From NCBI GenBank assembly GCA_020725115.1, contig DYFR01000007.1, positions 46,188-110,187 of the forward strand: a stretch of DNA of 64,000 bases. The letters are read 5' to 3'. Numbering within the stretch: position 1 is the first letter of the stretch; each line of letters opens with the position of its first letter. The position numbers and the translations under genes were made by a program. This stretch comes from Thiohalomonas denitrificans. GTDB lineage: Bacteria; Pseudomonadota; Gammaproteobacteria; Thiohalomonadales; Thiohalomonadaceae. The notes below the pieces were generated by a model. It was not told the origin of the DNA. It made no database searches and saw only the letters and a list, made by a program, of their open reading frames with translations. This document shows, one piece after another, positions 3,913-25,394 of the stretch.

Positions 3913-5388
3913 ATGTTGCTGCTGCTCCCCTTCGATCGCCGCGTGGACTGGAAGCGTCCGCCGCTCGTTACCCTCGCATTCATTCTGCTCAACTGCGCCG
4001 TCTTCTTCCTGTTGCAGGGCGACGATGAAGACCGGCTGGAAACGGCCTACACGTACTATCAGGACAGCACGCTGCCCGACATCGAGTTCCCGCTTTATGC
4101 TGCCTACCTGCGCCAGCAGGGCCGCTACAACGAGGTAAAGGCCTTCGAATCCGCCTACCGGACAGAGGATGGTCACATCAGGGATCCGGCACCCGGACTG
4201 TCGCAGTACCTGGACTTCGATTACGGCTTCATCAGCGCACTGAAAGGCGGCCAGCTGCTCCCGGCCGATGATCCGCGCCAGCCCCAGTGGCACGAACAGC
4301 GCACCCGGTATGAACAGCACCTTGATGCCGCCTTCATCCATCGCTACGCCTTGCGCCCGGCGCTGGTGACGCCCATCACTGCCGTCAGCCACATGTTCCT
4401 GCACGGCGACCTGTGGCATCTGCTCGGCAACATGGTGTTCCTGTTCATCGTCGGCTTCGTGGTGGAGACCATCCTCGGCCGGCGCTGGTACCTGGGGTTG
4501 TACCTGTTCGCCGGCCTGTGCGCCGCCGCTCTCGACATCGCCCTGCGGCCCGACGATCTCAACTACCACATCGGCGCCTCCGGCGCCGTGTCCGGCATCA
4601 TGGGCGCCTATGCCGTGCTGTTCGGCCTGCGCCGCATCGCCTTCTTCTACAACGTGCTGTTCTGGTTCGATCGCATCACCGCGCCGGCCATCATCATGCT
4701 GCCGCTGTGGCTGGCCAACGAACTGCTGCAACAACTGCTCAACAGCCACAGCAACGTCAACTACCTGGCCCACATCGGCGGCCTCATCGGCGGCGCCCTG
4801 TTCACCTGGGCGGCAAAGCACTATGACCGTCAAATCGACATCGCCTACATCGACGCCCCGCAAAAAGAGGCCGCGCGCCGCGATCTGCTGGCGCAGGCAC
4901 AGCGCCTGCTGGCCGAACTCAAGCCGCAACAGGCCAAGCCGATCCTGGCCAAGCTGCTGCGCGAGACGCCGGACGACATCGAACTGCTGACCCACCTCTA
5001 CCACGCCAGCCGCTTCCAGCCCGACGGCGACGACTACCACCGCTACGCGCGCCAGCTGCTGGCGCTGCCCGCAACGCCGATGAGCGAGCGGCTGCGCCTG
5101 TTCGACGAATACAGCCGCCTGGCGCAACCGGGGCCGCGTTTCGAAACCGGCGAGGCCCTGGGGCTGGCGCGCCGCTTCCTCGCCGGCGACCGCATCAAGC
5201 CGGCGGAACAGCTGGTGCTCGGCGTGCTGCGCCGCGAACGGCAGCACGCGGAACTGCCCGCTTTGCTGTTGTTGCTGGCACGGCAGGGAGAGAAGGAACG
5301 CGCCACCGCCTATCTGCGCACCCTCGTCACCCACTTCCCGACGGCCAACGAAGCCCGCATTGCCCGCGCAATGCTGGAGTCGGCTTGA
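3913..5388 (+). CDS. rhomboid-family intramembrane serine protease with C-terminal helical repeat region
   Basis: A 491-residue membrane protein. The rhomboid core shows HMFLHGDLWHLLGNM (about 159-173), the nucleophile motif GASG (221-224, Ser223), and the catalytic His in AHIGG (His287), so the Ser-His dyad is intact. A long insertion (about 35-150) separates the first helix from the core. The C-terminal 190 residues are hydrophilic and helical with TPR-like spacing. Rhomboids cleave transmembrane substrates; the target here is unknown. The gene stands alone between SulP and the accessory island. Confidence 0.8.
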   Translation: MLLLLPFDRRVDWKRPPLVTLAFILLNCAVFFLLQGDDEDRLETAYTYYQDSTLPDIEFPLYAAYLRQQGRYNEVKAFESAYRTEDGHIRDPAPGLSQYLDFDYGFISALKGGQLLPADDPRQPQWHEQRTRYEQHLDAAFIHRYALRPALVTPITAVSHMFLHGDLWHLLGNMVFLFIVGFVVETILGRRWYLGLYLFAGLCAAALDIALRPDDLNYHIGASGAVSGIMGAYAVLFGLRRIAFFYNVLFWFDRITAPAIIMLPLWLANELLQQLLNSHSNVNYLAHIGGLIGGALFTWAAKHYDRQIDIAYIDAPQKEAARRDLLAQAQRLLAELKPQQAKPILAKLLRETPDDIELLTHLYHASRFQPDGDDYHRYARQLLALPATPMSERLRLFDEYSRLAQPGPRFETGEALGLARRFLAGDRIKPAEQLVLGVLRRERQHAELPALLLLLARQGEKERATAYLRTLVTHFPTANEARIARAMLESA

Positions 5389-5482
5389 GGCAAGGTAAGT
5401 CAATGCATAGTGGATCGCTATTCTATGAGGCCGGAACACCGCTGCCCAGCAAACATGAATTCGTATATAAGGATGGCAGCAT

Positions 5483-6034
5483 TCACAATATTTGAACGAC
5501 AAACTCATTGAACAGCTTGTTATTCCATCTCACGATATATTGAATGAATTCCTTTCCACCCGTTGTCACAATTACTGCGTGGCAGGCCCTAACTTCTTCG
5601 CTTTCGTTATAGGCGCGCTCTGAGGGTTGTTCTAGCGATAGGAGTCTTGCTCCACCGAGTTCTGAGCTGACGATTTCAGCGATCACGCGTTTTGTTTCAT
5701 CACTGTCGCAACCAGGTAATTCAGTTGTGGCTAGTTCCGCGAGGCCTGATGCCACCCACAGTGCGCCAGCGAACGCGAGCACTGCCGTCTTGCCAACTCG
5801 GCCTGATATTTCTACGGGGGTCTGTTTGGCTCGTTCGATAAGTGCGCGCCTTTTCATGAGGTATGCAGGGAAGCCAACAATCCAAAACAGCAGTGTCAAT
5901 GTCGCCCATGCACCGGCCGAGATGTTGAACAAACTTTTGGCGCCAGGCACCTTACCGATTCCCGTACTGGTGGCATCCAGATACACCCATACCGCCGAAA
6001 GTGCGATTAAGCTCACCAATATCACATTCCACAT
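5483..6034 (-). CDS. small membrane protein of unknown function
   Basis: A 183-residue protein with two clear hydrophobic helices near the N-terminus (MWNVILVSLIALSAVWVYL and WATLTLLFWIVGFPAYL) and a third around 85-100, then a soluble C-terminal domain ending FNEFVVQIL. The start at 6034 is chosen because GGAGGG lies 6-7 bases upstream; an in-frame ATG 18 bases earlier would overlap that site. I do not recognise a family. It lies at the left edge of the accessory island and points opposite to the rhomboid gene. Confidence 0.6.
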   Translation of the reverse strand: MWNVILVSLIALSAVWVYLDATSTGIGKVPGAKSLFNISAGAWATLTLLFWIVGFPAYLMKRRALIERAKQTPVEISGRVGKTAVLAFAGALWVASGLAELATTELPGCDSDETKRVIAEIVSSELGGARLLSLEQPSERAYNESEEVRACHAVIVTTGGKEFIQYIVRWNNKLFNEFVVQIL

Positions 6035-6326
6035 ACCTATCCCTCCAGACATTCAATAACTCCGAGTTTGACGCGAGTGATGGTCACGGACCACGATGCA
6101 CCAGACTGGCTTTCCGCATTGTTGCGGCAGGTGCATAGATAACATCAGTACACGTCAGAATATGTCGCGGTGGATGTGGATCACGCCCTCGGACAAAGGA
6201 AGGCTCTGGTTCAGGTTGACTTCTAATAGCTGGTGCGGGATTCTTCTGAGCGGGGCGCGTCGGTGTCATTTAAGGGATATTGAATTGACTGCACGTGACA
6301 CTGGCTCATGCGGAAAGGAGGATGTG

Positions 6327-6647
6327 ATGGCCAATAAAATCGATTTACCCAGCAATTGGGTGTGTAACGGTTCCGAACTGAAGCCCAAGACCAACGCTTC
6401 GTCATCGAATACATGGATTCTTAGTGGCAAGGAGATCAAGCCAAAGATAGGGGCCACTTCATCGAATACCTGGCTGTGGGATGGGAGGGAATTGAAACCG
6501 AAGATTTCCGCAAATTCGTCCAATATATGGGTGGTGGATGGGGGTAAAGTAAAGCCCAAAGTGGGTGCCAATTCATCCAATACCTTTGATATTGGCAGGG
6601 AGCCGATTCTTGTAATCGCCGGAAAGATCGCTTTGCGTCTTTGGTAG
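6327..6647 (+). CDS. short protein of tandem 19-residue Trp/Lys-Pro-Lys repeats
   Basis: A 106-residue protein preceded by an excellent ribosome binding site (GGAAAGGAGG at 6312-6321), which decides the start. After a short leader it consists of four consecutive repeats of about 19 residues, consensus SNTWxxxGxE[LI]KPKxxAxS, closed by a degenerate fifth unit and a hydrophobic tail (LVIAGKIALRLW). There is no signal peptide and no catalytic motif. Regular Trp-x4-Gly-x3-Lys-Pro-Lys spacing suggests a beta-rich solenoid or binding surface. The function is unknown. It sits in an AT-richer patch left of the IS element. Confidence 0.7.
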   Translation: MANKIDLPSNWVCNGSELKPKTNASSSNTWILSGKEIKPKIGATSSNTWLWDGRELKPKISANSSNIWVVDGGKVKPKVGANSSNTFDIGREPILVIAGKIALRLW

Positions 6648-6765
6648 GTTAGGCAAGCCAGACGCTATGGATTTCGTCATGCATATTCGTGAAATGTCCG
6701 CGGTGCCAATAGGGGATCAACTGGCAATTGTATTTTGTTAATAATTGTAAACGAGATGGGGTTGG

Positions 6766-7086
6766 GTGGTTATGAAGGTGGATACTGAGGCGCAGCGTGT
6801 TGTCATCGATCTTGTCAGTGGCTGCATAAGAGAAGTAATTGTCGAACTATTTGATAAGAAAAGCGAATTGGATAATTCGGGTGATAAGCATGACGATGTT
6901 ATGAGGCAGATAGTCATGGCAAGGATTGATGTGTTAGGAAAAGTAGATGAGTATCTGCTTAAGCCCCTCAATGAGCACTACCTGTTTATTGAAAATGGTT
7001 CTGATGTTATTGAGCCGGGGATGCTTTTTTCAGCTCATGAGGAAATGATGGCAAAATTTAAGCGAAAAATTCTGCAAGGGTTGTGA
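6766..7086 (+). CDS. hypothetical protein, AT-rich orphan
   Basis: A 106-residue, largely helical and acidic protein with no membrane segment and no motif I recognise. The first codons are GTG GTT ATG, so translation starts at GTG 6766 or ATG 6772; a G-rich stretch upstream fits either. Base composition is visibly more AT-rich than neighbouring chromosomal genes, which suggests acquisition by transfer. It ends 31 bp before the left inverted repeat of the IS3-family element. Confidence 0.5.
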   Translation: MVMKVDTEAQRVVIDLVSGCIREVIVELFDKKSELDNSGDKHDDVMRQIVMARIDVLGKVDEYLLKPLNEHYLFIENGSDVIEPGMLFSAHEEMMAKFKRKILQGL

Positions 7087-7147
7087 CAGGGATTGTTGGG
7101 CGGTGAAAATGGCGTAGTGATCCTGCCCCGGTTTCTCGGACACTCAG

Positions 7148-8008
7148 TTAAGCCACATGCCGCAGTTCAAATGCCTCGGGCGAGAGATAGCCCAGGCGCG
7201 AGTGCAGGCGTTTCCGATTGTAATAGACTTCGACGTATTCAAACACATGGTCTTTGGCGACTTGCCGGGTGATAAAGCGTTCGCCGTGAATAGCCTCGAC
7301 CTTGAGGCTGTGGTTCCAGCTCTCCATGGCGGCATTGTCGTAGCAGTCGCCCTTCTTGCTCATGCTGCACACCAGGCCGTTTTCCAGCAGTAGACGCTGA
7401 TAGTCGCCTGAGCAGTATTGGCTGCCGCGGTCGGAGTGGACGATGACGCCACGGGGCCGCTTGCGGCGCCACAGCGCCATCTGCAAGGCATCACAGACCA
7501 GCCTGGCCGTCATGCGCTCCGACATGGCCCATCCGACTACTAAACGTGAGTACAGGTCGAGCACCACTGCCAGGTAGAGCCAGCCCTCGTCGGTGGCGAT
7601 GTAGGTAATGTCACTCACCCACTTCTGGTTCGGCGCCGTGGCGCTGAAGTCCTGCTCCAGCAGGTTGGGCGCTACCGGCAGGGAGTGGTTGGAGTGGGTC
7701 GTCGCCTTGTACTTGCGCGCCGCCTTGGCGCGCAGGCTGTTGGAGCTCATCAGATGTGCGACCCGGTTCTTCCCCACGCGCTGCCCTTCCTCCCGCAGAT
7801 GCCGGGTGACACGCGGCGCGCCGACACGGCCCTTGTGCTCTTCGTGTATCCGCCGGATATCGTCCGTCAGGCGCTGATTGGCCTGCGCCCGCGCTGACGG
7901 CGGCCGGTTGCGCCAGTCGTAGTAGCCACTGCGCGACACATCCAGCACCCGGCACATCAGTGCAACCGCATGATTCTCCTCGTGGCGGCGAATCATGGCG
8001 TACCTCAC
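7148..8008 (-). CDS. IS3-family transposase OrfB (DDE integrase domain)
   Basis: A 286-residue rve-type integrase. The catalytic triad is in SDITYI (first Asp), HSDRGSQY (second Asp) and NAAMESW (Glu). The N-terminus has the HTH_21-type segment (SRSGYYDWRNRPPS). It is read mainly as an OrfAB fusion after a -1 frameshift in orfA: the -1 frame is open from the slippery site to the conserved SRSGYYDW region. The GTG at 8008 overlaps the orfA stop codon (GTGA) and could also permit separate expression. Confidence 0.92.
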   Translation of the reverse strand: MRYAMIRRHEENHAVALMCRVLDVSRSGYYDWRNRPPSARAQANQRLTDDIRRIHEEHKGRVGAPRVTRHLREEGQRVGKNRVAHLMSSNSLRAKAARKYKATTHSNHSLPVAPNLLEQDFSATAPNQKWVSDITYIATDEGWLYLAVVLDLYSRLVVGWAMSERMTARLVCDALQMALWRRKRPRGVIVHSDRGSQYCSGDYQRLLLENGLVCSMSKKGDCYDNAAMESWNHSLKVEAIHGERFITRQVAKDHVFEYVEVYYNRKRLHSRLGYLSPEAFELRHVA

Positions 8009-8322
8009 TTCGACTGCTTGGCGAAGTACGCCGTCGCTTTTTTTAGGAAGGCGTTTTCCTCTTCCACCCGGGCCAGCTCCCGCTTCAGCCGGGCCAACTC
8101 GGCGTGCTGGAGCTTCTGCTCCTCGGTGGTCAGCCCCTCCAGCCGGCGCCGCTGCCGCCAGCTGTAGATCTGACTTTCCGCCAACCCCAAATCCCGCGCG
8201 GCTGCCGCTACACCATCCTTCTCGGCACGCTTGAGTGCCTGCTCTTTGAACTCGGCGCTGTACTGCTTGCGGGCCTTTTTCTCGTCTTGCTGCTTTGCTT
8301 TCATTTGTTCACCTCGGGTCAA
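8005..8322 (-). CDS. IS3-family transposase OrfA (helix-turn-helix/leucine zipper)
   Basis: A 105-residue protein with the typical OrfA layout: basic start, HTH (RKQYSAEFKEQALKRAE, then DLGLAESQIYSWRQ), and a C-terminal leucine-zipper coiled coil (LARLKRELARVEEENAFLKK). It binds the IS ends and regulates transposition. The start may be ATG 8322 or ATG 8304. The C-terminal LKK codons form the frameshift site that joins it to OrfB. Confidence 0.9.
   Translation of the reverse strand: MTRGEQMKAKQQDEKKARKQYSAEFKEQALKRAEKDGVAAAARDLGLAESQIYSWRQRRRLEGLTTEEQKLQHAELARLKRELARVEEENAFLKKATAYFAKQSK
8038..8044 (-). promoter_or_regulatory. programmed -1 frameshift slippery site (A AAA AAA)
   Basis: On the minus strand the orfA codons CTA AAA AAA give a perfect A_AAA_AAA heptamer. 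A -1 slip enters the orfB frame, which has no stop before its conserved domain. This is the standard way IS3 elements make the OrfAB transposase. Confidence 0.8.
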
Positions 8323-8563
8323 GAGTTTATTCTCTTAACCGGGTGTCCGGGGAGTCGGGGCAGGATCACTTTCGGAATACCCCACCGACTTGGCAAGCAA
8401 GTTGCTCACGGCTCGAAAAAATATCGATAGATAGCTCATGCCGCGTGCCAGACCTCGACAGTCCGATACGTCGCCGTCGAATGGGGGTTGACGCGAGCCG
8501 CCCATGAACGGGATTCGAGTAATTCGGATATCGGACTTATTGACGAGCCAGTGTAATATGGAC

Positions 8564-9811
8564 TCAGGACAGTCTGTCCAACATGTTGGCTTTGCTCAAG
8601 GCGTCGCGGACACGAACTGAAAGGTCACAAACTATTAGTACCAAGGACTCATTGGGATCGTTGGAAACAATAGACAACCAGGGGGCTTCCTCGCTATGCC
8701 AGTTTTTGAATTTTGGAGCGAACTCACGATCAGGAACGTCAGAATGCCAAGCCCACCACTCGCTGTTCTTTCCTATCATCTCGAGGTCTTTGTTCATTAC
8801 CTCATAGATATCGTGCCATTTGGACGAGTCGAAAGTTACAGCCTCGGACTTGCGTCTAATTCCCCAGAAAAACCTTTGTAAACCGGCTCCATAAAACTCG
8901 AACCGCAGGTACAGATGTTGCTCGCGTTCCTTTACGAAGGTCACTCCGAATCCGACGCAAGCTTGCCACCCCGACGAAAGCCCGTCATCCCAAATAAGCC
9001 CAAAGCCATGGGTCTCTAGAGATTCTGACAGTCGGTTTTTGAAATCCAGCAAGAGACGCCGTTTTACATCATCAAAGCATCTAAATACCGAGAATGCGGC
9101 AGCGATATTTGTTGGCGATTCGGTAATTATGCTGGTTGTTTCATGTTGTGCCGACATATCCATTTCTCCGTTTATTTGTTCTGACACGAACGTTGTCAGC
9201 TCCTCAATAAATACCCTGACTACCGGCGCCTGAGATTTGCAGGAACACAAATTAAGCCAGGTTACAATGTCGCGATACGTTATCTGTAAAAAATTGCCAC
9301 TTTGTGATAGATAGGTTCGTTCGTTTGGTGTGATGCTTTTTTCTGATGGCTCTGTATTTCCTATATAGATCAGGAGCCAGTTTTTTGTTCCAGATATTTC
9401 TTTTAAAAATTTTGCATAATCATGCAGTTGATTGGGCGGGTCGGCGGCCCAAGGCTTATTCTCGATGCCGACAATGCCGGTGCCCGGGATGTCCAAATAT
9501 ATATCGATACGCCTCTGGCCATTTGCCTGCTTTTCTGTGGTGACACGGCATTCCTTGGTATTTGTAATCCAATTCGCATCCGGGCGGAGTGTCTCGAAAA
9601 ATGCGTCGATGAACGCGGAGCCTTGACCGTGTTTTCCGGCAGGGTCAAGCAGGCTGGCCATACACCATGACAAGCCCATCTCGTCGGTCCGGAGAAAATC
9701 AAAGATGCGGAACTCTGGGGCAAGGCGACTGGCAAACCGCCGTTTGGCTTCGCCCAGAACTCTGCTGTTGATGCTGATGGAAGAGAGAAGGTTTTTGACG
9801 TTTTCTGTCAT
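8564..9811 (-). CDS. PD-(D/E)XK nuclease-superfamily protein
   Basis: A 415-residue protein from ATG 9811; a TTG nine bases earlier would overlap the WYL gene by four bases. The nuclease core is RIDIYL (Asp103) followed by GIENK (Glu117-x-Lys119) and a QLHDYAKFL helix, the pattern of the PDDEXK_4-like family seen in conflict islands. The C-terminal half is unassigned. It is the last gene of the five-gene minus-strand set. The predicted activity is DNA cleavage, but it is untested. Composition is more AT-rich than the upstream genes of the set, so it may be a later addition. Confidence 0.72.
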   Translation of the reverse strand: MTENVKNLLSSISINSRVLGEAKRRFASRLAPEFRIFDFLRTDEMGLSWCMASLLDPAGKHGQGSAFIDAFFETLRPDANWITNTKECRVTTEKQANGQRRIDIYLDIPGTGIVGIENKPWAADPPNQLHDYAKFLKEISGTKNWLLIYIGNTEPSEKSITPNERTYLSQSGNFLQITYRDIVTWLNLCSCKSQAPVVRVFIEELTTFVSEQINGEMDMSAQHETTSIITESPTNIAAAFSVFRCFDDVKRRLLLDFKNRLSESLETHGFGLIWDDGLSSGWQACVGFGVTFVKEREQHLYLRFEFYGAGLQRFFWGIRRKSEAVTFDSSKWHDIYEVMNKDLEMIGKNSEWWAWHSDVPDREFAPKFKNWHSEEAPWLSIVSNDPNESLVLIVCDLSVRVRDALSKANMLDRLS

Positions 9812-9816
9812 ATTAA

Positions 9817-10830
9817 TCAATCGCTTTCGTAGTGTGACACTGTGTTTGTCAGCGTTTGCTTGATCTCGGTAAGCAGGTGTTTAGGGCCTCGAACCTTGAT
9901 GTTTGGACCCTGCGACAATATCCACCACCGCAACTGCCACGAGTCTGCCACGGTGGCGGCAAGCAGGTGTTCGTCGCCATCCTGCACAAGCTTCTGATCT
10001 TCACTGAGCGGGGTTTCGCCCAGGATCCGCGCCAGCCAGTCGACGACGCGGGCTTTAAGCTTGATAGATTTGCCGTTGCCGAACTGAAACGCTCCCAATT
10101 GGATGTATTCATCGATGTTGAAGCCCTTGGGCGGCCTGATGCGGTCGGTCAGGCGCTCGGCGCGGCTGATGCGATGCAGTGCATAGATGCGTATGTCGTC
10201 GTACCCATAGGCCGTGGCGACGAGGTAGGTGATCGGGCCGCGCTGTACCATGGCGAGCGGATGGAGGACGCGGGTCTGGGGTTCATCGGCGTCCATGGAC
10301 TGATAGTCCACTTCTAGCTGTATCTCGTTCAGCAGCGCACCCTGGACGGTTTCGAGTACCGCTTGATCAATCTTCGGTGGGAGCAGGGGCAGCGCCGGTG
10401 GAATGTTGCGCACCTTGTCGGCCCACTGCGCAAGCCCGGGATGCTGTTTCTGGCTGGCAAGCTTGTTGGCCGCCTGACGGAAGCGCGGCTCCACCGCCTT
10501 GAGCACGCTGGCCGGCAGTAGCGGCCGAATCGTTTCCTCGATCATGCGCAGGGACAGGGCTTCCGCCACGTTGACGCCCGGCACGTCAGACGAGGCGCCC
10601 TTGGCCCAATGCCAGCCAAACGGTTGACCCTTATCATTGCGTTCAATCGACGGAAATACCGCCACCAGGCTGTCCAGGTCGCGCTCAACTGTGCGCTTGG
10701 TCACCTTGTAGCCGAGTTCCGCCAACTCCTGAGTCAGTTCCGCCGCCGTCTTGCCCGGCCGGTGGCTGGGCAACAGCTTGAGCAGCTCCCATTGGCGGGT
10801 GAGGGTATTGCGGCTGCTGTCACTCGGCAT
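9817..10830 (-). CDS. WYL-domain transcriptional regulator
   Basis: A 337-residue protein. The N-terminal winged HTH (LTRQWELLKLLP through KRTVERDLDSLV) is followed by a WYL domain around 170-240 (LHPLAMVQRGPITYLVATAYGYDD, then IYALHRISRAERL) and a WCX-like C-terminal domain. WYL regulators sense ligands, often nucleic-acid products, and control defence genes. Start ATG 10830 is chosen over one 57 bases upstream because it begins family homology and overlaps the end of the previous gene by 11 bases, implying translational coupling. Confidence 0.86.
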   Translation of the reverse strand: MPSDSSRNTLTRQWELLKLLPSHRPGKTAAELTQELAELGYKVTKRTVERDLDSLVAVFPSIERNDKGQPFGWHWAKGASSDVPGVNVAEALSLRMIEETIRPLLPASVLKAVEPRFRQAANKLASQKQHPGLAQWADKVRNIPPALPLLPPKIDQAVLETVQGALLNEIQLEVDYQSMDADEPQTRVLHPLAMVQRGPITYLVATAYGYDDIRIYALHRISRAERLTDRIRPPKGFNIDEYIQLGAFQFGNGKSIKLKARVVDWLARILGETPLSEDQKLVQDGDEHLLAATVADSWQLRWWILSQGPNIKVRGPKHLLTEIKQTLTNTVSHYESD

Positions 10831-12286
10831 GGTCTGTCCCTTGAAAGTGGCGTGCCACACGAACCATGGCCCAGGTATCCCGTTCACAATATTTCAGCAA
10901 GCCATCACGAAGCTGGGCCTTGCGCTCGGTGCTGGTTTCCGGCTGCAATATCTCGGCGAACGCGGATTGAGCCATGCCGCCGTCGGCAACTTCCAGATCG
11001 TCGTAGGCCAATTCTGGCGCGATGCTGGGGAGCACTGCCTTGATGGACCAGGAGCCCCGCATCTCGGGGTGGTAGTAATGCGTACGGGCGATGGGCAGCA
11101 GATCGACGATACGGTCGATGGCGGCCATCAGTGCCGGCGCTAGGTCGGGGTAGGTCTCGGCAAGCTCCCGCATACGGGTGCGCTCGAAAGGGGCGAAGTA
11201 GACGAAGATCGGACCTTCGGTGCCCAGTGCCGCAACCAGCGCCTCGGCAAAGGCGCGGCGCGGATCGCCGGTACCATCAGCAAGATATTCCAAGTGGGCA
11301 ACGTCGCCCGTGGCATTCTCGACGTGACACGACCACTGGAAGGGGACCTGGGCATAGGGGCGGGTCCCCGCCCAAATGGGCACAACGAACTGGATGGTCT
11401 CGAAGTCGAGATAGTAGCGCGGCCAACCCATGCCCCGCAGGAGTGTCGCGGCCTCGGCATCCAGCACCGGGGTGTTGTCACGGGTCGCCTGCCAGACGCG
11501 GATGTGTTTGGGGCTGGACAGTCGGCCTTCCGGTATGGAACGAATATCCTCATAGCCCTCGGCCCGCAGTTCATCCGCCAGCTTGCCTGCATACGGAAGC
11601 ACTTCGGGTGGGTAAATGTCCTCATCCCCTTCATCGGGCGAACAGAAACCGAAGAAGGGACAGTCGAAGGGATCGCTGCATTGGGTGCCTGGCGCCGTCT
11701 CCGGATCTGCGCCATCCAGGGTGGCGCGGGCCGCATCGATCCACGCGGGTACCTCGGGTTCCAGTGGCGCGATCTCGTCGGTGATATCCGTGTGGGCAAG
11801 CAGGCCCTCATAGCGGCCATCGCCCGGATAGATGAAGGAGGTATCGATGTGAGCGATTTCGACACGCGAGAGGGCAACACCAGCCTTGCGCGTTACCCAA
11901 GATTGCACCGCAGCGTCGGTGAGATGGTACGGCTTGACCTTGGTTGCGGATTTGACCTCGGCCATGCGCCACTCATTGCCATCCGGCAGCAGAAGATCGG
12001 CGCGTACCAGTACACCGTCGGCCTGGAAGGTGGCCTCGAACAGAGGGCGAGGCGGCTCCCGCAGCACGCGGGCGGTATCGGCCAGCGCCTGCTTGAGATC
12101 CTCTGCGTCGATGAGCACACCGCCCGGTTGGAGGTCGCGGGCAATATCGCCCACCTGATGGCCTGCTGCAAACCGTGCGGCGCTCCACGGGTCTTCCTCG
12201 GCCAGCTCCGGGCGATGAATCTGCAGCCATAGCCGCCGGGGGCATTGGCGGTGGGCGAGGATGCGTGATTTCGAGAGTCCGTGCAT
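10820..12286 (-). CDS. DUF2779-type fusion: Cas4-like Fe-S nuclease plus DEDD exonuclease domain
   Basis: A 488-residue protein. The N-terminal half resembles Cas4/RecB nucleases: LSKSRILAHRQCPRRLWL at the start (Cys15), the catalytic EVKS motif (Glu110, Lys112), and Cys203, Cys209 and Cys215 (CSDPFDCPFFGFC) completing a four-cysteine Fe-S set with Cys15. The C-terminal half has an RNase H-like DEDD exonuclease signature: LDFET (Asp294, Glu296) and YCERDTW (Asp470). I take ATG 12286, preceded by AAGGA, not an upstream start lacking homology. It lies between the FtsZ-like and WYL genes. The predicted role is processing foreign or damaged DNA; this is inference. Confidence 0.8.
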   Translation of the reverse strand: MHGLSKSRILAHRQCPRRLWLQIHRPELAEEDPWSAARFAAGHQVGDIARDLQPGGVLIDAEDLKQALADTARVLREPPRPLFEATFQADGVLVRADLLLPDGNEWRMAEVKSATKVKPYHLTDAAVQSWVTRKAGVALSRVEIAHIDTSFIYPGDGRYEGLLAHTDITDEIAPLEPEVPAWIDAARATLDGADPETAPGTQCSDPFDCPFFGFCSPDEGDEDIYPPEVLPYAGKLADELRAEGYEDIRSIPEGRLSSPKHIRVWQATRDNTPVLDAEAATLLRGMGWPRYYLDFETIQFVVPIWAGTRPYAQVPFQWSCHVENATGDVAHLEYLADGTGDPRRAFAEALVAALGTEGPIFVYFAPFERTRMRELAETYPDLAPALMAAIDRIVDLLPIARTHYYHPEMRGSWSIKAVLPSIAPELAYDDLEVADGGMAQSAFAEILQPETSTERKAQLRDGLLKYCERDTWAMVRVARHFQGTDHAE

Positions 12287-12302
12287 AACTGTCCTTGCCT
12301 GA

Positions 12303-13316
12303 TCATTGCGTGAATGGGGCTGCAAGTCGTGCAGTCGCTTCTTGAACGGCTTGTGCTGTCCACTCACGCTTGCCTGTCGAAACAAGGCTGAAGGCCCTAC
12401 GTCCGCTGCCGGCCCAATCTGGCCGAATAATAACACTTACGCCTAAGGCGGCAGATGGCGTCAGATATTGCGATAACGCCGCACAAGTCTGCTGGAACTC
12501 GTCCATGGACAAGTCTTGTGTGGCATGGAACCATGCCAGCACGGAACCTTGTCGTTCCATCGTCCATGTGGCCACGGCTTGTCTCATCGCACGATGGCAG
12601 TCGTCTTGCCACTCAATGGCGTGACACCGGGCGATAGGGCGACCTTGCGTCAAGTGGTCGCGTATCTCATCGGCAGTTATGACGGTCACGGCATCGTTCT
12701 GTTGGAACCACCCATCCAGCAGCAACGCGGCTGTATGTATTTCTGCGTCTGGATTATCTGCCTCGATGCGCAGCACACCGTGGAGGTGCTGCTCCATGGC
12801 TGAATCCAAGGGTCTGGCTGTGTACGAGCCATCGCGACCCAGCAATAGAACCGCGCGAAGTCCGATTCGCTGATACAGGCTGATATGTCTGGCCCAGTAC
12901 CATGCCGCCCTCGGAACATTCGGGTCTGTGCTGTCGACAACGAGTATGGCGGCGGTGCAGCTGTCCAGTTGGGTATGAAGCCAGTCCTCTTCGAGTTGTG
13001 GACCGGATAGGCCGGGATCGCTGCAAGGGTCGCTGCCGGGCGATGTCATGCAGCCTGCATGCATTCGTGCCAGCGCATCGCTTGCCCTGCGCCCCAGTCC
13101 AATTACGAAGGGATGCCCGGAACTTATTCCATGGGTAGCGCCGGTTTTCCAGGCAAACGTCGCGTGACCACGCTCTGACAGGTTCGGGTCGTACAGGGCA
13201 CGCAGCGATCGGGTATCGGCCTGCTGTTTCACGAAGGCGTTGGCCACCTCCCAGCGGGCGGCGGCCCCCAGCGCGATGCCCGTTCCGATAAGTTTCAAGG
13301 CTTGACGTCGTTGCAT
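12303..13316 (-). CDS. divergent FtsZ/tubulin-superfamily protein with N-terminal signal or anchor (tentative)
   Basis: A 337-residue protein from ATG 13316 (GAGGGTGA upstream). It starts MQRRQALKLIGTGIALGAAA, a twin-arginine-like leader or membrane anchor. FVIGLGRRASDALARM resembles the FtsZ nucleotide-binding start, and the C-terminal part (VLAWFHATQDLSMDEF, then GVSVIIRPDW and FSLVSTG) resembles the second FtsZ domain (NITGGxDLTLxEV ... VTVIATG). The GGGTGTG loop of true FtsZ is not present; DSTDPNVPRAA occupies that region. GTP binding is therefore doubtful. It sits 11 bp after the AAA gene and 16 bp before the DUF2779 gene. It could be an unrelated secreted protein. Confidence 0.45.
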   Translation of the reverse strand: MQRRQALKLIGTGIALGAAARWEVANAFVKQQADTRSLRALYDPNLSERGHATFAWKTGATHGISSGHPFVIGLGRRASDALARMHAGCMTSPGSDPCSDPGLSGPQLEEDWLHTQLDSCTAAILVVDSTDPNVPRAAWYWARHISLYQRIGLRAVLLLGRDGSYTARPLDSAMEQHLHGVLRIEADNPDAEIHTAALLLDGWFQQNDAVTVITADEIRDHLTQGRPIARCHAIEWQDDCHRAMRQAVATWTMERQGSVLAWFHATQDLSMDEFQQTCAALSQYLTPSAALGVSVIIRPDWAGSGRRAFSLVSTGKREWTAQAVQEATARLAAPFTQ

Positions 13317-13327
13317 GGCAATCACCC

Positions 13328-15430
13328 TCAGTGGACAAAGCCAATGCTGCGGCGTCGACCGTCTTCCTTGACGGCGCATTCCTCACCCAGTGCATCGAGC
13401 AGCAGGTGGGCGGTCGCGAACGGGCGGAAGCGGTGCTGACGGGCCGCGGCCGCATAGTCACCTGGCGTCAGCACACCCAGACCGGCGAGCCGATGCCGCA
13501 GCCCCGGCTCGGGTTGGGGCAGGCCAAGCGCGGCGCATTGCCGCACGAACATCTCCCAGGCCTGCTCCGGCAGCAGGTAGTCAAATTTCAGCTTGAGGTC
13601 GAACCGGCGCAGAGCAGCCTGATCCATGTTGTTCATCAGGTTGGTCGAGGCGATGAAGATGCCGGGGAAGCTCTCCATCTGGGTCAGCATCTCGTTGACC
13701 TGAGTGACCTCCCAGGAGCGCTCGGCGTTGCGGCGATCCTGCAGAAAGCTGTCCATCTCATCGATGAGCAGCAAGGCCCCCTCGCTTTCGGCCTCGCGGA
13801 AGGCCTTGGCGATGTTCTCCTCGGTACCGCCCACCCACATGGACAGCAGGTCGGAGGCGCGCTTGACCAGCAGCGGCATTTCCAACCGGTCGGCCAGCCA
13901 GCGGCCAAAGGCCGTCTTGCCGGTGCCGGGCGGACCATACAGGCACACCCGGCCGCTCTTGTTGCGCGACAGCCCATCGGCGATGGCGTTCAGGTCGGCA
14001 CTGGTATTGATGAATCGCGGGTCGTACCAGGACGGCAGCTGGTTGGGGTCGTTTTTCTTCAGCGGGGGATGGCCCTGGGTGGTGAGCGTATTGCCGATGA
14101 GACGTTCCAGCGCAGCTGGCACCTGCTCGTCCGTCAGCTCGCTGCGAATGCTGTTCACCACATGGGCGGCACGCTCCACCACGGCCGGCGCCAGGGCCTC
14201 GGCATGGGCGATGCGGGCGATGGCATCGCCCGGCAGCAGATCGGCGCACAGCTCGGTCATGATGCGCTCGCGCTGACGGCGCGGCGGCACCGGCAACTCG
14301 AACACCATATCGAAGCGGCGTACGAAGGCCGGCTCCAGCCCACGTATGGAGTTGGACAGCCACAGGGTCGGCACCGGGTTGTCTTCCAGCATGCGGTTCA
14401 GCCAGCCCTTGTTGGTTTCCGCGGTGCTGCGCTTGCCCCAGAAGGATTCACCGTCTCCGAAGATATCCTCCACCTCGTCGAACAGCAGCAGCGACTGGCG
14501 TGTGCCCAGGATGCTCTGGGCGGCGCGCAGGGCACGCAGGCGGTTGGTCCCGGTGATGGCATCACCATCGTTGTCTTCGCGTGCCACCTCGAACAGCTCG
14601 CAGCCGAAGGTCTGGGCCAGTACACGGGCAAACTGGGTCTTGCCGGTGCCGGGGCTGCCGTGGATGTAGATGTTTACACCCTTGTTGCGCTGGATGACGG
14701 CCTGGCGCAGATAGGGTACGACCACATCCAGATCGCGCTGAATGTGCTGGTAGTCGACCAGGCCCAGAGTCGGCGGGTTACACGGGGCAATCATCTCGCG
14801 CAGCAGGGTCAGGGGATCCTCGACGGAGCTTGCCATGCGGCCCGGCAGGCTCGTCGAGAGCAGATCGAGTTTTCCGGTAAGGGACATGCCGTTGCTGTGA
14901 TCAACCTTGATGAGGCCGGACTGTGCCAGTCGCCCCCGCGAGGAGAGTGCCTCCTTTACCTGTTGCTCGGCCGAGCCCAGCAACACCGACAGGGCCATAT
15001 ACAGACGGGTGGTCGACATAGGCCCCGCAAGATCGAGCGCCACATCGAGCTGCGGTGCATTGTAGGCAATGACCACAAACTCCAGGATCCGGCGCGAGGT
15101 CTCATCCAGGTTAATCAAGTCCGCGAGACGTCTGGCGTTGTGGTGCAAAATCTCAGGGATCGTGGCATCGGCCAATTCACGCTCGGCCGTGGCGTGCTGC
15201 TTACGCAGCTCTGCAAGAATCCTGTTGCGGTCAAACTTGGGCGAGTCAGGATCAGTCCACTTTCCCAGACCGATGGTTTCGGCCAGGTTGTCGTCACGAA
15301 AACTCGAGCTACCGATGAACTCCTTGTGGCCCCCAAGCGGGACAAGCAGGCGCAGAATCCACAGGCGCACGATGTCGCCCTGCTCAATGGCGAATGATGG
15401 AGGGGAAGAGTGGTGTAGTGGGCGGCGCAT
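13328..15430 (-). CDS. double-AAA+ ATPase of the candidate conflict operon
   Basis: A 700-residue protein with an unassigned N-terminal region of about 250 residues and two AAA+ modules. Module 1 has Walker A GSPGTGKT (258-265) and Walker B LLLFDEVEDIF. Module 2 has Walker A GPPGTGKT (499-506) and Walker B LLLIDEMDSF; the second module resembles the FtsH/Cdc48-type spastin group (WVGGTEENIAKAF, ASTNLMNNMDQAALRRFD). Such proteins form hexameric remodelling machines. It is the first gene of the five-gene minus-strand set, with direct repeats 27-60 bp upstream. The substrate is unknown. Confidence 0.82.
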   Translation of the reverse strand: MRRPLHHSSPPSFAIEQGDIVRLWILRLLVPLGGHKEFIGSSSFRDDNLAETIGLGKWTDPDSPKFDRNRILAELRKQHATAERELADATIPEILHHNARRLADLINLDETSRRILEFVVIAYNAPQLDVALDLAGPMSTTRLYMALSVLLGSAEQQVKEALSSRGRLAQSGLIKVDHSNGMSLTGKLDLLSTSLPGRMASSVEDPLTLLREMIAPCNPPTLGLVDYQHIQRDLDVVVPYLRQAVIQRNKGVNIYIHGSPGTGKTQFARVLAQTFGCELFEVAREDNDGDAITGTNRLRALRAAQSILGTRQSLLLFDEVEDIFGDGESFWGKRSTAETNKGWLNRMLEDNPVPTLWLSNSIRGLEPAFVRRFDMVFELPVPPRRQRERIMTELCADLLPGDAIARIAHAEALAPAVVERAAHVVNSIRSELTDEQVPAALERLIGNTLTTQGHPPLKKNDPNQLPSWYDPRFINTSADLNAIADGLSRNKSGRVCLYGPPGTGKTAFGRWLADRLEMPLLVKRASDLLSMWVGGTEENIAKAFREAESEGALLLIDEMDSFLQDRRNAERSWEVTQVNEMLTQMESFPGIFIASTNLMNNMDQAALRRFDLKLKFDYLLPEQAWEMFVRQCAALGLPQPEPGLRHRLAGLGVLTPGDYAAAARQHRFRPFATAHLLLDALGEECAVKEDGRRRSIGFVH

Positions 15431-15457
15431 GGTGGAGTCTCCCGGTGGTGTTTGAGA

Positions 15458-15491
15458 GACAGTATGCGTCGTGGTACGACAGAATACGTCG
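15458..15491. promoter_or_regulatory. tandem direct repeats upstream of the AAA gene, candidate operator
   Basis: Two 14-bp direct repeats, gacagtatgcgtcg (15458-15471) and gacagaatacgtcg (15478-15491), match at 12 of 14 positions and are spaced 20 bp apart, about two helical turns. They lie just upstream of the first gene of the set, which itself encodes a WYL regulator. Binding by that regulator is inference. Confidence 0.5.
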
Positions 15492-15708
15492 CACTTAGGG
15501 GCTGTTACGGCAGGTGCGGGTAGGTCGCCCGTGAAGAATATTATGGGAGAGGCCGATTAGTCGGGCGACATGGCCGCTCCACGCGCCGCCATCGCCCGGC
15601 ATAGCCAGACCCACAAGTCACCTGATGAGCAAGTTCGGCGTTCTCTGCACCTCCGCGCCTCACATGGGTGGTGGAAGGTCCTTGTCGTCTTCGCGTTGGA
15701 TTCTGCGT

Positions 15709-17226
15709 TTATGTTTTTGCCGTCAGGGTGGTGACGGTGGCGAGGTATTGCTTCACTTCGGCGGCGATGGGATGTTCGGCGTAGCGCTGCGCCAGCAGTT
15801 GCAGGATCGGCAGCGCCTTGTGTTCCTGGTTCAGTCCTTCGCTCAGGGCACGCGCCACCAGCAGATAGAGCCGGGGGATATCGGCGTGGCCGGGATGGCG
15901 TTTGTGAAAGCCGTTGCCGAGCGCCACCAATGATTTGTATTCGCCGATGTTGAACATGGTCTGCGCCAACGGATACACCTGATCGGGGCTGTCCAGTTTG
16001 AATTCCGGTTCGGCCTTGATGCAGTCACGCCACACCTGCACCGCCTTGGCACGATCCGAACCCTTCAGCAGCAGGCCGATGTATTCGGCGCCGTGGCCGG
16101 TGAGCCGCTTGACGTCGCCGGTCAGTGCCAGCAGGCGGTGAAAACGGTCGCGCAATGTTCGGTCGGCGCGGTTCTGCAACACGCGCGCGCGCAACATCGT
16201 TACTGCCTGCTCCAGCCTTCCCTCCTGGATCAGGGCCTCCACATCACCCAGCAGCGGGTGCTCCCGCGTCTGCGCCGGGTCGGTGGCGGCCAGAGCCTCC
16301 ACGTCCACATCCACGGCCAAACCGAGACGATGATGGTACTGGAACAGCACGTAGCCCATCAGGGTGAACATCACCAGGGTGAAGTAGCCGTTGAGCAACA
16401 CCGCCACCGGGATGATGATGGCAAACACCTTGTCCATGAAGGCCTCGGTTATGCGCTCCGCCTCCCCCGCATCGATCTCGTCCTCCTCCATCCCCTGCAA
16501 CGCCAGCATGTCACCCCCCAGTCGCTCGGTGAGCAGGTCGAGGATGACGTTGGGGCCGCTGGAGAGTATGCCGAGCAGAAAGAACAGCGCCAGGTAGGGC
16601 ACGCCAATGCGGGCGATCATGCCGAACAATACCGAGGGATTGATCGCGGCACCGATGTTGCGCTCCACCGCCAGCGCCATGATGCTGGCCGGCAGACACA
16701 GCATGACCACCATGTAATACACCATGGCCGCGACCGGACCGAGCATGGCACCGACGACTGCCAGCGGCAGGAACAACACCATGAAGACCACGAACTGCTT
16801 GAGTGCCAGATCGAGACCATCACCGCTCAAGGACTGCAGTACTGCCGGCGCCTGTTCGTGGCCACGCGCGCGATGGGTAAGCAGGGTATAGGCGTATTTG
16901 TAGAACAGCAGCAACAGCACCAGTTGCATCAGCAGGGCCGAAAACGAACGGTAACCCACCAGTGCGCTCAGTGCGGTAATGACCAGCAACAGCACCAGCG
17001 GCTGAGCCTGAAACGGCAGGGCGAAGAAAGCGGGCAGACGGTTCCAGAACGGCGGCACCAGATCATCGGTACCCACCTCCAGCGCCGGCTCGCGACACAG
17101 GGGACAGGCGGGCGGACCCTCCGGGTTCTCCTTGGACAGGCAGGAAGAACAGAAATTGATGCGGCAGCGCTCGCAGGCCCAGCGCGCCGTGCGCTGGGGG
17201 TGATACTTGCACATTACCCTGGCCAT
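15709..17226 (-). CDS. zinc-finger, multi-pass membrane protein with C-terminal TPR-like region
   Basis: A 505-residue protein from ATG 17226, which has a purine-rich upstream region (AAAGGAAG). The N-terminus is a B-box-like zinc finger with paired cysteines and a His (CKYHPQRTARWACERC, then CSSC and CPLC). About five to six hydrophobic helices follow (residues about 60-310), then a 190-residue helical repeat region (TPR-like) ending VTTLTAKT. It lies just downstream of pilU in the same orientation, with a gap of about 150 bp. No specific function is known to me; a link to twitching motility is only positional. Confidence 0.7.
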   Translation of the reverse strand: MARVMCKYHPQRTARWACERCRINFCSSCLSKENPEGPPACPLCREPALEVGTDDLVPPFWNRLPAFFALPFQAQPLVLLLVITALSALVGYRSFSALLMQLVLLLLFYKYAYTLLTHRARGHEQAPAVLQSLSGDGLDLALKQFVVFMVLFLPLAVVGAMLGPVAAMVYYMVVMLCLPASIMALAVERNIGAAINPSVLFGMIARIGVPYLALFFLLGILSSGPNVILDLLTERLGGDMLALQGMEEDEIDAGEAERITEAFMDKVFAIIIPVAVLLNGYFTLVMFTLMGYVLFQYHHRLGLAVDVDVEALAATDPAQTREHPLLGDVEALIQEGRLEQAVTMLRARVLQNRADRTLRDRFHRLLALTGDVKRLTGHGAEYIGLLLKGSDRAKAVQVWRDCIKAEPEFKLDSPDQVYPLAQTMFNIGEYKSLVALGNGFHKRHPGHADIPRLYLLVARALSEGLNQEHKALPILQLLAQRYAEHPIAAEVKQYLATVTTLTAKT

Positions 17227-17379
17227 GCTTCCGCACTTCCTTTCGCTGCGCTGGATACGGCAAACCAGATACAAGCGGATGTGCGCGCTACGCGCACGCT
17301 GGTCCGAATGGCAAACAAATACGAGCGCAACGAGTTCCTTCCCTTGTCTCTTTTCTCTGCGCTCAGGCCGGGCCGCACA

Positions 17380-22444: not shown

Positions 22445-24409
22445 ATGGCGAACCAACGCTTCGACCGACAGATGCAGGCCTACGGCCAGTGGAAGACGGC
22501 ACTCCTTGCCGGCATCGAGCGCTATCAGCGCTGGCTGGACGGCAACAAGATGGGGGATGCCGAAGACGAACTGCGCATCTACGAGGTACTGGAAGCACTG
22601 CGCGCCGATCGCCTGACCATCGCCTTCGTGGCCGAATTCGCCCGCGGCAAGACCGAGCTGATCAACGCCATCTTCTTCTCCGAATACGACCGCCGCCTGC
22701 TGCCCTCCGAGGCCGGCCGCACCACCATGTGCCCCACCGAACTGTTCTGGGACAGCAATACCGACAAGGCCTATGTGCGCCTGCTGCCCATCGAAACCCG
22801 CCTGTCCGATACCAGCATCGCCGAGTACAAGCTGGAACCGATCAACTGGACCCACATCGAACTGGATCTGTCCTCGCCCGACAACATGGCGGAAGCCTTC
22901 CAGGAGATTGTCAAGGTCAAGAAGGCGACGCTGGATGAGGCGCGCAAGCTGGGGCTGTACAGCGATGCCGAAGCCCATATGCACATGCAGAACGGCAAAC
23001 TGCCGAGCCAGATCGACATCCCCCTGTGGCGCCACGCCCTGATCAGCTTCCCCCATCCGCTGCTCAAGCAGGGCCTAGTGATCCTCGATACCCCGGGCCT
23101 CAATGCCCTCGGTTCGGAACCGGAACTGACCCTCAACATGCTGCCCAACGCCCAGGCGGTGGTCTTCGTGCTGGCCGCCGACACCGGCGTCACCAAGTCC
23201 GACCTGGAGATGTGGCAGCACAACGTCAAGCCACTGCGCAGCGGCCACAAGAAGGGGCTGTTCGTGGTGCTGAACAAGGTCGATACCCTGTGGGACGAAC
23301 TGAAGACGCCGGCCCATATCGAAAAGACCGTCAAGGATCAGTGCATGCGCGCCGCCCAGACCCTGGGCATCGATGCCGACCAGATCTATCCCGCCTCGGC
23401 GCAGAAAGGCCTGCTGGCCAAGATCCGCCACGACAAGGACTTGCTGGCACGCAGCAACATCCTGGCGCTGGAAAACATCCTCGCCGGCGAGGTGCTGCCC
23501 TACAAGCAGAGCCTGGTGCGTGAACACATCCTCGCCAGCATCGGCGCCATGGTCAAGGAATCGCACGACATCCTCGCCACCCGCCTCGCCTCGGCACGCA
23601 AGCAGCTGGAAGAACTGAAAGGCCTGTCCGGCAAGAACAACGACGTCATCGAGCTGCTGATGAAGAAGACGCGCGACGAACAGGTGGCCTATTACAAGAA
23701 TGTGGAAAGCTTCCAGGCCAACAAGCGCATCATCCAGGAACAGTCCAAGAGGCTGGGCGACACCATCAACCTCGCCGCCCTGGATCAGCTGGTGGCGGAA
23801 ACCCGCAAGTCCATGTCGGACAGCTGGACCACCCACGGCCTCAAGGCCGGCATGAAGACCTTCTTCGACGGTATCAGCGCGCGCCTGTCCGAGGTCTCCG
23901 AATTCGCCGACCAGCTCAATCGCCTGGTGATCACCATCTACCGCACCTTCCATCAGGAACACGGTATCGCCGAGATCAAGCCGGCACTGTACTCGCTCAC
24001 CAAATACAAACAGGAATTCCAGCAGCTGTATCAGGAGGCGGAGGCCTTCCGCAGCAGCCCGGTGACGACCATGACCGAGCAGCATTACGTCATCAAGAAA
24101 TTCTTCATCTCCCTGGTCAGCCATGCCCGCAACATCTTCTTCAAGGCACAGCGCGATGCCGAAGGCTGGAGCAAGGCGGCAATGTCGCCCCTGGTCAAAC
24201 AGATCAAGGAACACAAGGAGACCATGGAGCAGCGCCTGGAAAACCTGCGCAAGATCAACGAATCCCGTGACACCCTGCAGTCACGTATCGAGGAGCTGGA
24301 AAAGTCCAGCGCGGCCCTGATGAAACAGTACGCCGAGGTACGCAGCATCCTCAACACCATCAACCAGCCACTGGAAGCGATCGAGGAACCGGCGGCCAAG
24401 GCCGGCTGA
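22445..24409 (+). CDS. dynamin-like GTPase
   Basis: A 654-residue protein. The start MANQRFDRQ is chosen because an upstream in-frame ATG would sit in the promoter's -10 region. The GTPase domain has G1 FARGKTEL (about 67-74), a threonine-rich switch segment AGRTTMCPTE, G3 DTPGL, and G4 LNKVD. The C-terminal 330 residues are long helices with coiled coils (HKETMEQRLENLRK and later), as in bacterial dynamins that remodel or guard membranes. It stands alone after yggU and converges on the UreH-like gene. The membrane target is not visible; no obvious transmembrane helix is present. Confidence 0.82.
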   Translation: MANQRFDRQMQAYGQWKTALLAGIERYQRWLDGNKMGDAEDELRIYEVLEALRADRLTIAFVAEFARGKTELINAIFFSEYDRRLLPSEAGRTTMCPTELFWDSNTDKAYVRLLPIETRLSDTSIAEYKLEPINWTHIELDLSSPDNMAEAFQEIVKVKKATLDEARKLGLYSDAEAHMHMQNGKLPSQIDIPLWRHALISFPHPLLKQGLVILDTPGLNALGSEPELTLNMLPNAQAVVFVLAADTGVTKSDLEMWQHNVKPLRSGHKKGLFVVLNKVDTLWDELKTPAHIEKTVKDQCMRAAQTLGIDADQIYPASAQKGLLAKIRHDKDLLARSNILALENILAGEVLPYKQSLVREHILASIGAMVKESHDILATRLASARKQLEELKGLSGKNNDVIELLMKKTRDEQVAYYKNVESFQANKRIIQEQSKRLGDTINLAALDQLVAETRKSMSDSWTTHGLKAGMKTFFDGISARLSEVSEFADQLNRLVITIYRTFHQEHGIAEIKPALYSLTKYKQEFQQLYQEAEAFRSSPVTTMTEQHYVIKKFFISLVSHARNIFFKAQRDAEGWSKAAMSPLVKQIKEHKETMEQRLENLRKINESRDTLQSRIEELEKSSAALMKQYAEVRSILNTINQPLEAIEEPAAKAG

Positions 24410-24430
24410 TCCCTGACGCAACCGGGAAAT

Positions 24431-24620
24431 CTCACCGCCGAGGCGCAGAGGACACAAAGCTGTTCAATGCGCCAGTGGATCTCATCCAGTTCATGCAAGC
24501 CGGACATGGCGTAGCGATGTCCGGCGATTCCCCGATATCGCTGTACCTTATGGGCCTAAGGCTGCCGGATGAAACCCAACCATGTTGTTTCTCTGCGTCC
24601 TCTGCGCCTCGGCGGTAAAA
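24431..24620. repeat. intergenic palindrome, family B (copy 2), between convergent genes
   Basis: The left arm (24431-24459) and right arm (24588-24620) are inverted copies around the core accgccgaggcgcagagga. Within the 128-bp spacer is a second hairpin (gccggacat facing atgtccggc, 24498-24524). It fills the gap between the dynamin-like gene and the UreH-like gene and may act as a bidirectional transcript end. Confidence 0.75.
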
Positions 24621-24638
24621 ACTAGTGCAGTTTGCTGG

Positions 24639-25325
24639 TCAGATCATCGCCGCCTCATACAGCATATAGATACCGAAACCCATCACCACCACACCGGCAC
24701 TGCGACGCACCCACAACAGGCGCAGCCAGGCCGCCAGCTTGCCGGCCACCAGGCCCATGGTCAGCAGGTTGGGCAGGGTGCCGACACCAAAGGCGAGCAT
24801 GAGCAGGGCACCGTCCAGCGGACTGCCGGAGGAGATCGACCAGATCAGGGTGCTGTAGACCAGACCACAGGGCAGCCAGCCCCATACCAGGCCGAGGGCC
24901 AGCGCCTGCAACGGTGAACGCACGGGAATGAAGCGGCGCCCAATGGGTTCGACAAAGCGCCAGACCAGATGACCCACACGCTCGACCTTGGCGAGGCCAA
25001 ACCACCAGCCCCCCAGATACAGTCCCATCGCCACCAGAAAGATGCCGGCCAGCATCAGCATGCCGACGCGTATTTCGTGCAGCGCGCCCATGTTGGCGGC
25101 AATCAGGCCGACGCCCCCCATCAGGGCCCCGGCGAAGGCGTAGCTGATCAAGCGTCCGCCGTTGTAACCGAACAGATAGGGCAAGAACTGCGTGGGCCGG
25201 CCGCGCACCGCTTCGGGCAGACCGAAAGACAGGGCACCGACAATGCCGCCGCACATGCCGACGCAATGCACGCCGCCGAACAGCCCGACGAAAAAGGCGG
25301 CGATATAGGAAATTTCAGCATGCAT
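24639..25325 (-). CDS. sulfite exporter TauE/SafE-type (UreH-like) membrane protein
   Basis: A 228-residue protein with six hydrophobic helices. The diagnostic metal-handling motifs are GGVHCVGMCGGI (about 18-29) and GWLPCGLVYSTLIW (about 149-162). In other proteobacteria such proteins are encoded next to cbb3 oxidase assembly genes and act in metal (copper or nickel) trafficking. No oxidase gene is adjacent here, so the role is inferred from family only. Confidence 0.82.
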   Translation of the reverse strand: MHAEISYIAAFFVGLFGGVHCVGMCGGIVGALSFGLPEAVRGRPTQFLPYLFGYNGGRLISYAFAGALMGGVGLIAANMGALHEIRVGMLMLAGIFLVAMGLYLGGWWFGLAKVERVGHLVWRFVEPIGRRFIPVRSPLQALALGLVWGWLPCGLVYSTLIWSISSGSPLDGALLMLAFGVGTLPNLLTMGLVAGKLAAWLRLLWVRRSAGVVVMGFGIYMLYEAAMI

Positions 25326-25394
25326 GGGCAGACATCCGGCAGCAGGTAAGTGAGGCGTGTATCATAGCCCCTTCGCCGTTTTCACCCAAACATC

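Follow-up and report, generated by a model that had tools for sequence, protein, structure and literature searches.

A candidate WYL-regulated conflict module with a tandem AAA ATPase and exchangeable partners, among them an FtsZ look-alike, in Thiohalomonas denitrificans

In the window, the 64,000-nucleotide stretch of Thiohalomonas denitrificans DNA analysed here, five adjacent genes encode a tandem AAA ATPase, an FtsZ look-alike, a DUF2779 protein, a WYL regulator and a PD-(D/E)XK nuclease. The block lies within an insertion, and relatives of its AAA gene recur elsewhere with DUF2779, WYL, PDC-S26 nucleases and FtsZ relatives. Our preferred reading, held tentatively, is that the five genes form a WYL-controlled conflict module in which the AAA protein would remodel a target, the two nucleases would destroy invader nucleic acid and the FtsZ look-alike would serve as bait. 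The evidence speaks for a module with exchangeable partners more than for a fixed five-gene system, and the FtsZ look-alike is the surprising part of this cassette.

All five genes are intact from ATG to TGA and span positions 15430 to 8564 of the minus strand. Their order is the AAA ATPase (13328..15430, 700 aa; ORF and Pfam), the FtsZ-superfamily protein (12303..13316, 337 aa), which has a twin-arginine N terminus (MQRRQALK) and no GGGTGTG loop, the DUF2779 protein (10820..12286, 488 aa), with a putative Cas4-like PD-(D/E)XK half and a DEDD-type exonuclease domain, the HTH-WYL-WCX regulator (9817..10830, 337 aa; Pfam and PADLOC) and the PDDEXK_4 nuclease (8564..9811, 415 aa; Pfam), which belongs to the PADLOC candidate family PDC-S26. 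The ORF coordinates confirm the minus-strand block and the spacings described in an earlier note on this DNA: gaps of 11 bp between the AAA and FtsZ-like genes and 16 bp between the FtsZ-like and DUF2779 genes, an 11-bp overlap of the DUF2779 and WYL genes, and 5 bp between the WYL and PD-(D/E)XK genes. This tight packing fits an operon; promoter-like sites in the block were no more numerous than chance (two seen against 2.5 expected, none above chance), and thus the joint transcription of the five genes is something that we infer.

The domain identities given in the earlier note, its FtsZ-like guess included, are supported by Pfam and PADLOC and, for the FtsZ part, by fold and profile. Pfam AAA (PF00004) matched twice in the AAA protein, with P-loops in both modules, and its nearest solved relatives are the Cdc48/p97 ATPases. 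A Cdc48-like ring pulls proteins apart, as is established for Cdc48. The DUF2779 assignment is clear (Pfam, E 3.3e-45); the N-terminal half of the protein gave a weak PADLOC Cas4 match (E 0.0076), and the sequence of the DUF2779 protein, read by eye, shows cysteines of the Cas4 type and acidic residues of the DEDD type. DUF2779 has been grouped, in the part of the source used here, with presumed 3'-5' exonucleases and found with the PD-(D/E)XK-like DUF83 domain (PMC3985635). The regulator has Pfam WYL and WCX matches. The nuclease matches Pfam PDDEXK_4 (E 6e-22) and the PADLOC PDC-S26 model (E 1.3e-39, residues 4-387 of the frame given), in whose name the "S" stands for a single gene.

The block sits inside a 10.3-kb insertion (5376..15718), with a rhomboid-like gene at 3913-5388 on one side and, on the other, the gene of a TPR protein at 15709-17274. 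The flanking-gene comparison took in four congeners, two of which lack the insertion: the homologues of window positions 15719 and 5375 are 133 bp apart in G016 and the corresponding gap is 150 bp in G015, against 10.3 kb in the window; G014 and G017, in which at least one flanking gene was not found, are uninformative. These gaps bear out the accessory region postulated in the earlier note, and the IS element mentioned there is real: an IS3-type insertion sequence on the minus strand (7116..8370), with two transposase ORFs (7148-8008 and 8005-8322) and terminal inverted repeats of 37 nt (7116-7152 and 8334-8370) that are 84% complementary, adjoins the nuclease end. On the plus strand, window positions 6096-6647 encode a small protein with several NTWxxxGxExKPKxxAxSSN-type repeats and no Pfam match above the cut-off.

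In 2-kb windows, the G+C content is 0.51-0.57 over the IS and the nuclease end (5001 to 11000) and 0.615-0.645 over the stretch from DUF2779 to AAA. This step hints at a composite origin, and the block may therefore consist of stacked cassettes, with AAA-DUF2779-WYL as one unit and the PDC-S26 nuclease and the FtsZ look-alike as separate accessory genes, the five not acting together. We consider this quite possible, if on balance improbable: the IS at the nuclease end and the PADLOC entry for PDC-S26, listed apart from any set, agree with it, while the gaps of 5-16 bp and the one overlap, on one strand and across all five genes, argue against it.

The distribution of the genes bears on the same question. 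The searches for relatives of the AAA protein and the FtsZ look-alike scored about 8000 candidates, and the set of AAA loci comprised 107, namely 79 from records and 20 from genomes of the host's class (together 99 genomic loci) and eight on plasmids, six of them drawn from 15 AAA-bearing plasmid records and two reached via DUF2779 matches. Of the 369 genomes of the class that were sampled, 23, including the window genome, have the AAA at E<=1e-60; it is absent from the three same-genus or same-family genomes among those listed. Gene order was counted from tblastn coordinates, and nuclease counts comprise tblastn and PADLOC matches only; the ORF calling took in some antisense frames, and clusters c4 and c6 were ignored.

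In 18 of the 87 AAA loci (of 99) with enough sequence, AAA is directly followed by DUF2779 in the same orientation, and WYL is the next gene on the same strand in 11/87 and on the opposite strand in 5/87; the order AAA-DUF2779-WYL was found in 8 of 73 loci. Where the sequence reached 5 kb to either side of AAA (45 loci), WYL lay within this distance of it in 30, DUF2779 in 15, both in 12 and neither in 12, and at the same distance the plasmid loci presented WYL in 8/8 and DUF2779 in 4/8 (two of these four fetched by DUF2779). Loci with AAA, DUF2779 and WYL occur in beta- and gammaproteobacteria, in Verrucomicrobiota (L073, L081) and on alphaproteobacterial plasmids. Most AAA loci are without DUF2779, and DUF2779 is often found without AAA, for out of 29 plasmid records with DUF2779, 15 loci were examined, and 11 of these gave no AAA match.

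The neighbourhood search across genomes proposed in the earlier note thus gave a divided answer: AAA, DUF2779 and WYL recur in unrelated hosts, but the five-gene set in the same order was not found. In the available sequence, the complete set of five was seen at none of the 107 other AAA loci, 24 of the 99 genomic loci being shorter than 12 kb and hence incomplete, and the partners of AAA are optional and vary in order and strand among loci. Therefore, on the sequence available, the single five-gene system that the note had envisaged, as a fixed unit, is rejected. This variation in order, strand and presence of the partners also favours stacked cassettes. Against them stand six loci, each of which combines four of the five types of gene: an FtsZ relative, AAA, DUF2779 and WYL in L010 (Thauera), L051 (Halothiobacillaceae) and L151 (a Rhodoferax plasmid), PDC-S26, an FtsZ relative, AAA and WYL in L017, and PDC-S26, AAA, WYL and DUF2779 in L073 and L155. 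L023, whose nuclease match (E 5e-6) is 8.8 kb from AAA, was left out of these six. An Aliarcobacter plasmid (L156) carries PDC-S26-DUF2779-WYL, the WYL gene by annotation, with AAA absent. Judging from these gene neighbourhoods, AAA-DUF2779-WYL is probably the core, with FtsZ relatives and PDC-S26 as putative exchangeable partners.

Three of the 99 loci have an FtsZ relative no more than about 1.3 kb away from AAA. Assuming one FtsZ gene per 3 Mb, the expected number would be 0.43 for the flanks as a whole (P 0.01) and 0.15 for distances up to 2.3 kb (P 5e-4, with a limit chosen once the data had been seen). A further hit of the FtsZ-profile scan, in L062 (E 5e-4, 108-residue frame), was dropped. 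The loop-less FtsZ family of the window was found in none of the 99 genomic and eight plasmid AAA loci (wide profile A6, E<=0.1), which indicates that FtsZ relatives of the ordinary kind, not those of the window's family, accompany AAA elsewhere. This absence weakens the conflict-module reading and strengthens that of stacked cassettes. In viral contigs, search A1 turned up no relative and search A2 a single AAA relative. From human faeces comes a contig labelled as phage (L169; Bacteriophage sp. MT835507, an unverified record), in which an AAA with 42% identity precedes a WYL match.

Some of the neighbours at AAA loci belong to known or candidate defence systems (PDC-S26, PDC-M27, BREX-2). 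In the Rhodoferax L151, PDC-M27 A, B and C follow WYL, each with E 1.9e-182 or better, and in Sphaerotilus (L170) the BREX-2 genes pglZ and brxD and a WYL gene precede AAA, which is followed by Sir2 (by annotation). The 29 loci with sequence for 7 kb in either direction have 158 neighbours, of which 110 were drawn at random; their 25 commonest families, listed with no random-locus control, include PDDEXK_4 (3), Sir2 (3), GajB models (2) and FtsK-gamma (2, best E 1.1e-16). Two Sir2 proteins from AAA loci had no PADLOC model match. Directly upstream of AAA in Diaphorobacter (L152, 10821-11816) is an FtsK-gamma-like protein (E 1.4e-5, below the Pfam cut-off).

Other neighbours point to RNA. L145 (7704-14759) starts with AAA and continues with two genes that look phosphatase-like by eye, then Sir2, a gene of 212 aa, RtcB and finally PrfH; L041 has AAA-Sir2-RtcB, L040 has RtcB and Sir2 divergent from AAA, and in L153 RtcB comes after AAA with a Sir2 remnant between them (by eye). 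The FtsZ look-alike family occurs in similar company: in L178 (9263-13181), from a genome of the host's class, one of its fragments lies immediately upstream of RtcB and part of PrfH, with a 64-residue AAA match further on, and in L172 (12584-14386), a plasmid of Thiodictyon, a complete member is next to prfH. These associations keep in play an RNA-damage role, in which AAA and its partners would act in ribosome or tRNA repair with RtcB, PrfH and Sir2. RtcB2-PrfH protects E. coli from colicin E3 according to the part of the source drawn on (PMC9223846). Nevertheless, the window block showed neither RtcB nor PrfH and has two predicted nucleases, RtcB occurs at only 4 of the 107 AAA loci, and we regard this role as improbable. 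The same Thiodictyon plasmid (pTs485) also contains, at 24081-26888, an AAA gene of the window family that an IS607-type element interrupts; an FtsZ paralogue, Sir2 and WYL are close by.

The FtsZ-like protein of the window has no match in Pfam, NCBIfam or PADLOC, and its assignment comes from models and profiles. A first structure model, built with 6 sequences, was weak (pLDDT 44), with FtsZ/tubulin in its first 21 VIA rows; the second displays the two-domain FtsZ/tubulin fold, predicted over residues 66-316. Foldseek alone put methyltransferases (first model) and spermidine synthases (second model) at the top; no such match reached E<=0.001, and these rankings were given no weight. When the 369 genomes were searched with the wide family profile A6, three of the five non-self matches were genuine FtsZ, in the C-terminal domain (E 6e-8 to 3e-6), the FtsZ of the remaining genomes being below the threshold; another non-self match, L177 (E 8.6e-4), was dropped as a TGS GTPase by eye. 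An hhalign comparison of the family with FtsZ gave P 0.0028 over 111 collinear columns, but a probability of only 11% (earlier, with 6 sequences, P 0.012, 62 columns and 3.7%), and in the opposite direction an FtsZ profile did not pick up the window protein. By these fold and sequence criteria, the protein is a predicted member of the FtsZ-tubulin superfamily, the second model and the profile search ruling out that the FtsZ-like call was a misreading.

What the protein does not have is the GGGTG(S/T)G nucleotide loop: DSTDPN stands at its place in the window protein, and the glycine-rich loop is missing there in 18/18 members of the family; the FtsZ relatives of Rhodoferax and Thauera have GGATGTG and GGGTGSG, respectively. 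Because this GTP-binding loop is missing, the filament-forming role that had been considered for the protein is doubtful for the window copy. The loss, together with some shortened family members (P0135-P0138), could mean that the look-alike is a decaying, functionless FtsZ copy and the rest an ordinary accessory operon. This is very improbable, since the frame is open, with its start 11 bp past the AAA stop, and the family includes at least 13 further full-length relatives with conserved residues and 24-65% identity. Full-length members have 311-337 aa, and the window protein ends about 20 residues past the FtsZ-like fold. With a narrow alignment, no relatives of the look-alike were found in 19 other genomes of the host family or in 397 other genomes of the phylum sample.

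The twin-arginine motif was recognised by eye and with a pattern. Fifteen of the 18 family members begin with M-x-R-R and then a short hydrophobic stretch, in one case after an annotated N-terminal extension, and the remaining three start downstream of this point. The Rhodoferax FtsZ relative, which is not detectably in the window's loop-less family by BLAST, begins similarly (MNRRKLFQLLG). The motif pattern fits just 5 of the 763 ORFs of at least 150 aa called in 79 AAA loci, some of them spurious (18/763 begin MxRR), and TatC is present in the window genome. FtsZ is a cytosolic GTPase, and a twin-arginine start on one of its relatives is for this reason a surprise in itself. Export of the look-alike is predicted from these N termini; an uncleaved membrane anchor is also possible. 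The look-alike might thus be Tat-exported or membrane-held and act at the division site or envelope, for example by blocking the division of the infected cell once released by AAA. The predicted FtsZ fold is compatible with such a role, but the hydrophobic stretch is short and the motif is missing in the AAA-adjacent FtsZ relatives of L010, L017 and L051, which leaves this a rather unlikely explanation. A broader proposal, in which an AAA-nuclease immune module would employ exported or membrane-held, periplasm-facing FtsZ homologues without their GTP switch as bait or as a weapon at the division site, is unlikely as well, although less so.

In the conflict module that we tentatively prefer, the WYL protein would hold the genes low until an infection signal is sensed, as BrxR represses its island. 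Phages make FtsZ inhibitors. The FtsZ look-alike, its predicted fold kept and its GTP loop lost, could bind invader proteins or complexes that target the host FtsZ; the AAA ring would then engage the bait-invader complex and unfold or strip it, and the DUF2779 protein (Cas4-like and 3'-5' exonuclease) and the PDC-S26 nuclease would degrade the exposed nucleic acid. The twin-arginine start argues against the bait role, as the export that it suggests would keep the look-alike from cytosolic FtsZ. If confirmed, the module would add to the defence catalogue a mobile WYL-regulated ATPase-nuclease system with a broad bacterial distribution and would connect immunity with the FtsZ fold. A testable question arises as well: do dead FtsZ copies act as bait for phage proteins attacking division?

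The earlier note knew of no described system with this set of five genes, and we found no description of it in the open-licence papers searched. PADLOC gave no set that links DUF2779, the window AAA and the FtsZ relative, and DUF2779 matches its models weakly; in PADLOC-DB, the window nuclease matches PDC-S26, and PDC-M27 A/B/C is the set that comes after AAA-DUF2779-WYL in Rhodoferax. The second AAA module of the window matches IetA models (E 4.3e-36), but with 116.5 of the 510 bits of the NCBIfam cut-off, and no protease domain is encoded among the five genes, so that we do not class the block as IetAS. IetS, the partner in IetAS, is a serine protease. The WYL protein of the window resembles BrxR-type regulators, of which BrxR represses its defence island (PMC9122601), in its HTH and WYL domains and its position beside defence genes; as far as that source was drawn on, it differs in being the fourth of five genes, and repression by it is an analogy. 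FtsZl1 and FtsZl2 are, like the window family, divergent FtsZ-superfamily proteins outside cell division, and in the parts of the source used here they keep the GGGTG(S/T)G loop and have long C-terminal parts (PMC2875224, Makarova and Koonin 2010). In contrast, the look-alike family has no loop and mostly a twin-arginine start, and presents neither a coiled coil plus helical domain nor a C-terminal region of about 300 aa, which separates it from both as they are described there.

Further close parallels are the MoxR-vWA ternary and GTPase-tubulin-HSP70 conflict systems. The five-gene block differs from them in having a classical Cdc48-like tandem AAA, not MoxR (bpMoxR 21.8 bits against a cut-off of 27, with classical AAA best), and no vWA, TRAFAC GTPase or HSP70 genes, and the term DUF2779 is absent from PMC7159879. 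According to the passages used here, the two kinds of systems resemble the block in combining an AAA+ ATPase or GTPase core with exchangeable partners, which include FtsK-related and rare FtsZ/tubulin domains, and inactive enzyme homologues have been proposed in them as decoys for invader proteins (PMC7159879, Kaur et al. 2020).
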